This document shows positions 14,066 through 41,683 of a stretch of DNA of 64,000 nucleotides, one piece after another (positions within the stretch are counted from its first letter, which is position 1; every line of letters starts with the position of its first letter). This DNA comes from Armatimonadota bacterium. GTDB taxonomy: Bacteria; Armatimonadota; Hebobacteria; CAIYQO01. A program made the position numbers and the translations under genes. The stretch is taken from the NCBI GenBank assembly GCA_029553475.1, contig JAKPKV010000131.1, positions 1 to 64,000 of the forward strand, read 5' to 3'. The notes under the pieces were generated by a model that saw nothing but the letters and a program-made list of their open reading frames with translations, was not told the origin of the DNA and did no database searches.

Positions 14066-14505
14066 ATTGAAAAGTGCAAATTGATAATTGACAATTGTAA
14101 ATTTTTACTCTCGAGCGTCCAGATGCGATACTCGAACTGCTGAACTCTTCTTCGCGGCGTTTGTTTTTGCGGTAACGATGGATTTCGCAACGATATTACA
14201 TAATTCACTGGCTTCCTGTGCCACTTCCTGGATACCTGGCGTCGTCCTGAGTTCCGCTTTCAGCATCAGGCGCAGCCAGAAGCGGGACTCCCGCAGCTCT
14301 TTCAGTGCAATTTTCAATTTATGAATACAGTCAGCACGGCTCTCCGCTGCACAGGCTTCTTCGTAATTGGCCGCGCTCGATGTTCCCGACCGCAGCAGTT
14401 GCGCGCCAACATGCCGTCTCTGAGATGGAACAGCGTATCCGCTTCTACCCCTGGTGATCGCATACCGCGCCATCAATTGACAATTGTCAATTTGCACTTT
14501 TCAAT
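14066..14505. mobile_element. inverted-repeat cassette around a four-helix-bundle gene
   Basis: A 33-bp arm at 14066-14098 (ATTGAAAAGTGCAAATTGA...) matches the reverse complement of 14473-14505 at 30 of 33 positions, including the outer 19 without mismatch. The 440-bp unit fills the whole gap between two unrelated genes and contains one small minus-strand gene whose stop lies 6 bp from the left arm and whose ATG touches the right arm. No target duplication is evident. The geometry matches the 474-bp GxxExxY cassette at 19518-19991. Confidence 0.7.
14105..14473 (-). CDS. four-helix-bundle protein (23S rRNA IVP/S23-like), N-terminus shortened
   Basis: 122-aa protein whose core is characteristic of the four-helix-bundle family TIGR02436, first described from proteins encoded in 23S rRNA intervening sequences: VGAQLLRSGTSSAANYEEAC, ADCIHKLKIALKEL and ESRFWLRLMLKAEL. 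Family members usually have a further helix (FA...RLVEALP) before the GxQLLRSGTS motif. Here that segment is replaced by ARYAITRGRSGYAVPSQRRH, so the 5' part looks eroded or replaced. The ATG at 14473 abuts the right inverted-repeat arm. A GTG at 14497 would begin inside the arm. There is no clear ribosome site. It may be a decaying gene. The biochemical role is unknown. Confidence 0.7.
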   Translation of the reverse strand: MARYAITRGRSGYAVPSQRRHVGAQLLRSGTSSAANYEEACAAESRADCIHKLKIALKELRESRFWLRLMLKAELRTTPGIQEVAQEASELCNIVAKSIVTAKTNAAKKSSAVRVSHLDARE

Positions 14506-19517: not shown

Positions 19518-19991
19518 TCTCACGCCAAGGCGCCAAGGCGCAAAGACGCGAGGATTATTCCAGACCATTGACGACACGCTTGATGCCGTCTTTTATATAC
19601 GTGGCGCCAAAATTGATGAGCAAGCCAAGGCGCATGTCAGTGAGCCGCAGGTAGGTGAGAAGCTGCTTTTTGTGCACTGGCAGCACTGTCTCCACGGACT
19701 TCAGCTCAAGGATGACTAACTGCTCAACGATGATGTCTGCACGAAAACCGATGTCGAAGGTCAGCGTATCATATCTCACGGCGATAGGCTGTTGACGTGT
19801 AACTGATAATCCGCGCTTCTGCAGTTCATGTGCGAGCGCAACCTCGTAAACAGATTCAAGCAGGCCCGGTCCGAGTGATTTGTGAACCTGATACGCGCAG
19901 TCTACTACAATCCTGGCAACCTCGTTCTCGGTCATCACAATGCTCCTTCACATACACTCGCGTCTTTGCGCCTTGGCGCCTTGGCGTGAGA
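19518..19991. mobile_element. inverted-repeat cassette around a GxxExxY gene
   Basis: Two perfect 35-bp inverted repeats, 19518-19552 and 19957-19991, enclose a single gene. Each arm contains an internal GCCAAGGC tandem duplication. The enclosed gene's stop lies 2 bp from the left arm and its ATG about 20 bp inside the right arm. A 32-of-35 match to the right arm stands alone at 41828-41862. No transposase and no target-site duplication are visible, so transfer would need help in trans. Confidence 0.75.
19555..19935 (-). CDS. GxxExxY protein
   Basis: 126-aa protein of the GxxExxY family (TIGR04256): the signature GPGLLESVYE sits at ~24-33 and is followed by ALAHELQKRGLSVTRQQPI, DIGFRADIIVEQLVILELKS and LPVHKKQLLTYLRLT. 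The Asp/Glu and Glu-x-Lys pattern (RADIIV...LELKSVE) resembles the PD-(D/E)xK nuclease fold, which suggests nucleic-acid or nuclease-related activity; no function is established. AAGGAG supports ATG 19935; a GTG one codon upstream is an alternative. Composition is clearly less GC-rich than the flanking genes. The gene is fully contained in the perfect inverted repeat, which points to mobilisation as a unit. Confidence 0.85.
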   Translation of the reverse strand: MTENEVARIVVDCAYQVHKSLGPGLLESVYEVALAHELQKRGLSVTRQQPIAVRYDTLTFDIGFRADIIVEQLVILELKSVETVLPVHKKQLLTYLRLTDMRLGLLINFGATYIKDGIKRVVNGLE

Positions 19992-26972: not shown

Positions 26973-27014
26973 GCAGCGGGGAACACTGCGCGTCTGCTCT
27001 CGTTCCCAAACCAT

Positions 27015-27127
27015 CCCGTTGGTAGTCAGCTACGCAGCGGAGCGGAGTAGCGTTCGCATACCGTTCCGGTTACGGATGCTATATCTGAACGGCACTCCGC
27101 TCCGCTGCGTGCCTCACTACGAACGGG
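27015..27127. repeat. long hairpin element, copy 1
   Basis: The 41-bp arm 27015-27055 pairs with 27087-27127 at 35 of 41 positions around a 31-nt loop. The arm core (ACGCAGCGGAGCGGAGT) and the loop recur, in the opposite orientation, in the element at 41377-41683. Confidence 0.75.
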
Positions 27128-27147
27128 GTCTTTTCCAGCCTTTGCCT

Positions 27148-38498: not shown

Positions 38499-38760
38499 GA
38501 CGGCTCCTCTGTGACAGGGTACCGTTAAGTTGGACGGCGCGCGGGGGAATACCTTTTTCCGGTGGGAAGGGGCGGATGAAGGGGTGAAGAGGTGAGGTGA
38601 TGCGGGGAGGTCCGGTGTGTGCGGAGTACAACTCCGCGGCCCCGGTGGGCGGGGTGCAACGAACCAGGAACGAGGTGTAGTGGGCCGTCACGTTGCTTCG
38701 CCATCTTGACCGGGGGCGCCCCACGGGAATCGGACGGCGCCGACGCGGAGGGCGCGCCAG

Positions 38761-39158
38761 CGGACCCCATGGACAGCGCCCGGTCGCCCCATGTCCCGAA
38801 GGGACCGAAGCCGTTAGCCACGGGTGGAGCGTCAGCGGAACCCGTGGGACCCGGCTACCGCGGAGCATCCGGAATCCTCCTCCTGCAACCTCACCGTCCG
38901 CTGCGGCTCGGCCTGCGGCTCGCGCTACCGCTTCACCGCGTCCCATCCGCTCACGCTGCTCGAGGAGGCGCGGGGCCATCTCCGGTCGGGGCGGCGAATG
39001 AATCGGCCATGCTCTCCTCCTGCTGTCGCCCCTGCGGGGCTGCGAATGTTTGCGGGCCGGGTCCCACGGGTTCCGCTATCGCTCCACCCGTGGCGAACGG
39101 CTTCGGTCCCTGCGGGACATGGGGGTGGGGGGCGACCGGGTGCTGTCCGGGGGGTCCG
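38761..39158. repeat. 400-bp element with ~95-bp inverted arms
   Basis: Arm 38761-38855 (containing CCATGTCCCGAAGGGACCG) corresponds to the reverse complement of 39056-39158, with roughly 85% agreement and one short insertion, around a ~200-bp centre rich in GCTGCGGCTCG-like runs. It occupies most of the 925-bp gene-free stretch 38499-39424. No credible gene is present; the long open frames here are products of the high GC content. Confidence 0.65.
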
Positions 39159-39236
39159 CTGATGTGCCGCCCGTGGCCGGGGGGGATCCCTTCGGGATGA
39201 CATCATATCCTCTACCTCTTACTCCGATCTCCTATC

Positions 39237-41376: not shown

Positions 41377-41683
41377 GGCGCGTCCGCATTTGCACCCGGC
41401 CCCACCAAACCCCGTTCGTCGTGAAATGGGGACTGTCCCCCTGAACGCCGTGACCCGTTGATCCACAGGGGCCTCACCGGGACTGTCCCCAATACGCCCA
41501 CCCGGGGGAAGTAAATTATACCCGGATGAACCCATCCCGTTCGTCATGCGGCACGCAGCGGGGCGGAGTGCCGTCCGAGTATAGGATACGTTACCGTGAG
41601 CAGCAGCGCACGGCACTCCGCCCCGCTGCGTGCCGCACGACGAACGGGGTTTGGTGGGGACGGGGTGCAGAGGCGGACGCGCC
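41377..41683. repeat. composite nested inverted-repeat element, copy 2
   Basis: Outer arms 41377-41423 and 41636-41683 are near-perfect inverted copies. Inner arms 41536-41574 and 41610-41648 pair at 38 of 39 positions around a 35-nt loop. Between lies the 63-bp GGGGACTGTCCCC module (41428-41490). The same parts recur at 27015-27210 in a different order. No coding content. Confidence 0.8.

Follow-up and report, generated by a model that had tools for sequence, protein, structure and literature searches.

An IVP gene between inverted heptamer arrays: a candidate one-gene mobile cassette in Armatimonadota and other bacteria

The 64-kb window analyzed here (the whole stretch of DNA under study, 64,000 nt from a contig of an Armatimonadota bacterium) contains a small gene of the IVP (S23-like) family tightly enclosed by two inverted repeats, which raises the question of whether gene and repeats form a single unit and, if so, whether that unit moves. 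The IVP family is widespread and has solved structures; to our knowledge, there is no agreed function for it.

The IVP cassette in the window

The cassette (14066-14505, 440 nt, minus strand) consists of a predicted four-helix-bundle IVP gene (14105-14473, 122 amino acids from ATG) and two inverted arms of 32 nt. The left arm, on the 3′ side of the gene (14066-14097), is built of degenerate units of about 7 nt (AATTGAA-AAGTGCA-AATTGAT-AATTGAC-AATTG) with the purine-rich strand directed into the gene; the right arm, on the 5′ side (14474-14505), is an inverted copy of it, and the two are 94% complementary and separated by 376 nt. The initial annotation had described a minus-strand IVP-like gene between inverted repeats of 33 bp, with its stop against one arm and its start against the other. 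Gene, repeats, and layout were all borne out, with the stop codon (14105-14107) 7 nt from the left arm and the ATG (14471-14473) directly abutting the right arm; the arm length was not, as the 33rd position adds one mismatched outer base. A longer form of the open reading frame, starting from a GTG at 14497 within the right arm, would encode 130 amino acids.

Inverted-repeat scores for 628 equal-sized gene slots across the window place this slot first (54, against a median of 17), and its arm score was reached by no dinucleotide shuffle. The second-best score (42) belongs to the slot nearest a companion cassette (19518-19991, minus strand), which had also been reported and is real: a GxxExxY/PDDEXK_3 gene (19555-19938) lies between 35-nt arms of CGCCAAGG type (100%), a different class from the arms of the IVP gene. 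As RNA, the IVP cassette is predicted to form a single long stem-loop (z = -3.8). It is flanked by an open reading frame without assignment on one side and an abhydrolase gene on the other; no rRNA is present at the locus (L004), which is thus not an insertion in a helix of 23S rRNA.

The encoded protein matches both family profiles above their cut-offs (TIGR02436, 68.7 bits against 24; PF05635, 48 bits against 33.8), and an AlphaFold2 model (pLDDT 90) is a four-helix bundle whose best structural matches are the IVP structures 2rld (Z 14.8) and 2gsc (Xcc0516 of Xanthomonas; Z 14.2). A weaker match is Avd, a protein of diversity-generating retroelements (4dwl; Z 11.4, rmsd 2.2 Å, 16% identity), which shares the fold and whose homology to IVP was noted earlier (PMC10053308). 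The TIGR02436 match begins only at profile position 23, and the N-terminal residues (about 20) do not align with relatives, so the window copy may be decaying; the DNA upstream is likewise unalignable, and the first helix is predicted to be short. It is probably an old copy that has decayed in part.

Other repeats were observed elsewhere in the window. A 69-nt inverted repeat (94%) surrounds 200 bp at 38787-39124, a MITE-like hairpin with no evident gene, and is itself enclosed by an outer inverted pair (38746-38790 and 39129-39173); GC-rich palindromic repeats at 27008-27134 and 41395-41664 recur and are seemingly related (CGGAGTGCCG / CCCGTTCGTC motifs).

Arms across gene families and phyla

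The host genome has four IVP and four GxxExxY genes, and every one of them (8/8) is flanked by inverted repeats far above the level of shuffled sequence, each of the eight arm pairs having its own sequence. A survey of 151 Armatimonadota genomes found flanking inverted repeats at 24/28 IVP loci and at 23/27 GxxExxY loci, the GxxExxY arms having units of 8-10 nt and being of CACCGCAGAGACGCAGAG / CGCCAAGGCGCCAAGG type. By the same criterion, control loci in Armatimonadota gave 0/29 for SmpB and 0/26 for PIN/VapC, and neighboring windows of the same loci gave 0/60 and 1/59 (1/119 in total); because these controls are near zero, the arms are not common spacer sequence of the kind found beside genes in general. 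DUF559 nuclease-like genes carry flanking inverted repeats at 14 of 25 Armatimonadota loci (L140-L169), their arms being CCCTCTCCC...GGGAGAGGG hairpins and the flanking sequences inverted copies of a CCCTCTCCC...GGGAGAGGG...GGGTGAGGG repeat; DUF559 is a third class of one-gene cassette.

Beyond the phylum, the best 80 of 563 confirmed IVP relatives were taken from one-per-species genomes; these relatives were found with a closer sequence set, an alignment of 33 sequences being too divergent for such scans. Flanking inverted repeats are present at 62 of the 78 usable loci, in about 20 phyla (at least 15), among them Planctomycetes, Desulfobacteria, Omnitrophota, Bacteroidota, Cyanobacteria, Acidobacteria, Chloroflexi, Verrucomicrobia, Nitrospirae, and Elusimicrobia. 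Arms were also found at 10/10 plasmid IVP loci (eight independent; Cyanobacteria, Chloroflexota, and one spirochaete), and heptamer arms at 6/7 IVP loci on predicted viral contigs (L260-L266). Four of the 28 Armatimonadota loci and 16 of the 78 others fall below threshold, several of them still with visible heptamers. The earlier suggestion that single-gene inverted-repeat cassettes are a general principle, which would have failed had most homologs lacked arms or unrelated genes carried them equally often, is upheld by these counts, within Armatimonadota and outside it.

Some plasmid IVP cassettes (L170 and L175-L178) lie between defense genes: cas2 and cas1; DISARM drmD and pglX or MmeI; and DUF1156 and Swt1-HEPN. 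In Chlorohelix (L178, approximately 1726-2400), a longer heptamer hairpin is present as well as the inverted arms, with two copies in direct orientation flanking the IVP gene.

The IVP arms are tandem arrays of degenerate 7-mers. Pooled over 97 loci, self-identity within arms is 0.62, 0.58, and 0.54 at lags of 7, 14, and 21, and about 0.25 at most other lags; at most loci the purine-rich strand points inward, toward the gene, in either arm (purines exceed half in 78/97). Once phased, the heptamers share a loose consensus (A/G, A/T/C, T/G, T/G, C/A/T, A/G, A/G) with an information content of 3.61 bits (null maximum 3.02). The initial annotation was thus right about inverted arms and missed that they are heptamer arrays rather than fixed terminal repeats. 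A pattern search of the host genome detected the window arm sequence at about nine other sites without a gene, some as back-to-back palindromes; these gene-less arms look like remnants or non-autonomous copies. Transcription termination was considered as a reason for the arms and rejected, no terminator-like site being found.

Arm class is specific to gene family: the family was correctly assigned from arm sequence alone at 97% of loci (null maximum 55%). Within the IVP family, arm similarity follows protein identity (rho 0.39, 0/300 permutations), and does so when comparisons are made between phyla only and corrected for GC (rho 0.41, 0/400), as well as when Armatimonadota are left out of that analysis (rho 0.21, 0/400). 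In six genomes with multiple IVP genes, arms resemble each other no more between paralogs than between genomes (similarity 0.197 against 0.201), and 9/500 shuffles inside genomes matched the observed correlation, a weaker result than that across phyla. Because paralog arms are no more alike and the correlation survives shuffling within genomes, the arms are a property of the cassette and not of the host. Such specificity to the gene family suggests a protein that acts on the arms around its own gene; the covariation could partly represent joint inheritance or horizontal transfer with no contact between protein and arm.

At an orthologous site in two species of one genus (L070 and L077), the flanks are about 83% identical in DNA and the IVP proteins are strongly diverged, either through very fast evolution or through gene exchange at one site.

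Filled and empty sites and a proposed route of insertion

Three Nostocales sites allow a filled locus to be compared with an empty one. In Nostoc plasmids (N6, ATCC 53789, and C057G), a cassette with CAATTCG arms interrupts a cytosine methyltransferase gene, of which Nostoc C052, C057N, and UHCC 0302 have intact versions; 460 bp stand in place of 311 bp of the gene, and the intact gene has no arms, only one lone CAATTCG at the left junction. Compared with N6 and ATCC 53789, C057G lacks exactly one 7-nt unit in each arm. At the second site, on plasmid A of Nostoc C052, a TAATTCG cassette stands in place of 197 bp of a small gene found on sister plasmids. At the third, in Dolichospermum, a cassette takes the place of a spacer of about 80 bp between helicase and methyltransferase genes; this comparison is across genera (approximately 73%-75% identity) and is weaker than those at the two Nostoc sites. 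No target-site duplication is visible at any of the three, the target DNA having been replaced. At the two Nostoc plasmid sites, aligned filled and empty sequences identify gene plus arms as the inserted unit, and the same is probably true in Dolichospermum. A pre-existing palindrome with a gene dropped into its loop was rejected for the Nostoc sites, where the intact target is armless.

These pairs are all from Nostocales and none from Armatimonadota, and it is from comparisons of this kind that we infer movement. For the window locus no homologous empty site was found: a contig of the same genus ends beside the abhydrolase gene, and a genome of the same family has other neighbors. A genus-wide comparison around one Armatimonadota cassette yielded filled orthologs only.

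Replacement without duplication points to insertion of a repair or template-switch type, not to a cut-and-paste transposase. We consider it rather probable that the feature in the window is a copy of a minimal mobile cassette in which two arrays of degenerate heptamers, inverted relative to each other, enclose an IVP gene. The IVP protein (Avd-like in fold, with pentameric relatives) would bind the arms of its own cassette, in the form of hairpin DNA or RNA, and would promote copying of the cassette into new sites by microhomology- or template-switch-type repair. Slippage would lengthen the arrays, and template switching inside the hairpin, a process reported to homogenize inverted-repeat arms (PMC8604942), would keep the two arms similar. 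Such insertion would account for the replaced target DNA, the lack of any duplication, and the parallel change in copy number of the two arms, which homogenization by template switching would explain; in Planktothrix, against this, copy number is altered on one side only.

The main rival to this mobile cassette is a free-standing relative of the intervening sequence (IVS) of 23S rRNA, a reading we consider unlikely. The arms would then act in RNA and would not guide movement; they would stay complementary through selection on the RNA or through template switching, and insertion in operons would be tolerated because RNase III cuts the stem out. The Coxiella IVS, which is sporadic and thought to be horizontally acquired, is 428-444 nt long and has a 28-bp stem of terminal repeats, an S23p open reading frame, and cleavage by RNase III (PMC4990558), so that it resembles the cassette in protein family, in size (about 440 nt), and in complementary termini that form a stem. 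The predicted stem-loop of the 440-nt window cassette is as this rival would have it, as is the position of cassettes between closely spaced defense and CRISPR genes. However, none of 20 loci checked lies within a 23S rRNA gene, and RNA pairing alone does not demand a period of 7, a common consensus, family-specific arms, or gene-less arm copies; position outside rRNA, heptamer arrays particular to each locus, and scattered arms without a gene set the cassette apart from the IVS. Apart from Coxiella, a 23S rRNA IVS with an S23p/IVP open reading frame also occurs in Leptospira.

A non-autonomous transposon, in which a transposase encoded elsewhere would recognize the terminal repeats and carry the gene along as cargo, would fit the terminal inverted repeats, the single gene, the lack of an internal transposase, and the arm-like sequences elsewhere in the genome. 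We judge it very improbable: one transposase needs a fixed site, whereas the arms differ between loci even in one genome, arm class tracks the enclosed gene family, and target DNA is replaced with no duplication. Mobilization in trans, as proposed in the initial annotation, accordingly finds no support in the sense of unrelated machinery: arms are family-specific and co-vary with the protein and no target-site duplication was seen, which fits better with a protein that works on the arms of its own gene. RVT_1 reverse transcriptases are enriched in IVP genomes (21/48 against 10/53, p = 0.009, uncorrected for genome size) and are absent from 27 of the 48, so they are not a required helper within the same genome; a reverse transcriptase as obligatory partner was rejected on these counts, which also speak against a transposon mobilized in trans.

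A neutral by-product would be a further reading: slippage would create heptamer arrays where spacers tolerate them, template switching would add inverted copies, and the gene would be incidental. This would fit the reported homogenization of arms and an over-representation of heptameric repeats in many bacterial genomes with polymerase slippage as the proposed cause (PMC4692102, PMC4679880), but is already disfavored by the SmpB, PIN/VapC, and neighboring-window controls and by the separate arm class of each gene family, and we give it hardly any credence.

Relation to known elements and significance

Several known systems share single features with the cassette. RAYT-REPIN pairs likewise place one gene beside inverted short repeats and have dispersed gene-less palindromes (PMC3116915, PMC2817692); unlike them, the cassette has IVP as its only gene and no Y1 (HUH) transposase, carries heptamer arrays and not REP hairpins, and differs in its arms between paralogs of one genome. 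MITEs and single-gene IS-like elements are also short, with terminal inverted repeats and a gene as sole content, whereas the cassette has no target-site duplication at the compared sites, no fixed terminal sequence, and no transposase. Thus of the hallmarks of TIR transposons the terminal inverted repeats are present, and a fixed sequence common to copies is absent. In contrast to diversity-generating retroelements, whose Avd shares the IVP fold, the cassette lacks a reverse transcriptase; the sole RVT_1 gene of the genome is on another contig (C159).

The heptameric repeats of Xanthomonas, Nostoc, and Beggiatoaceae are intergenic 7-nt tandem arrays, as are the cassette arms, and in Xanthomonas they are often convergent pairs, again like the arms; as described in the accessible parts of the reports, they are not tied to a gene family or generally to mobile elements, unlike the arms (PMC4692102, PMC4679880). 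Cyanobacterial STRR sequences are likewise intergenic 7-nt tandem arrays. A search of the openly searchable literature (subscription papers and preprints lay outside it) returned no paper in which IVP genes are connected with heptamer arms, and the literature on GxxExxY, DUF559, and heptamers held no report of a gene-arm association. The IVS with an S23p open reading frame, heptameric repeats, IVP-Avd homology, and RAYT-REPIN pairs are already known. Gene and arms together resemble a very small mobile unit of wide distribution, one that the searched literature does not recognize as such.

A broader proposal can be put forward only tentatively. IVP genes with heptamer arms may form an unrecognized class, bacteria-wide, in which an Avd-like protein recognizes its own arms and insertion is transposase-free and target-replacing; remnants of such cassettes would have given rise to many heptameric repeats, and GxxExxY and DUF559 would form parallel systems, each using a different arm code. 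The same layout in the nuclease-like GxxExxY and DUF559 families would mean that one-gene elements, each smaller than any insertion sequence, exist in several independent forms. The strict association of IVP with heptamers, together with family-specific arms, makes the function of IVP directly testable. Heptameric repeats are over-represented in bacterial genomes and have no accepted origin, and the link to IVP makes that origin testable as well.
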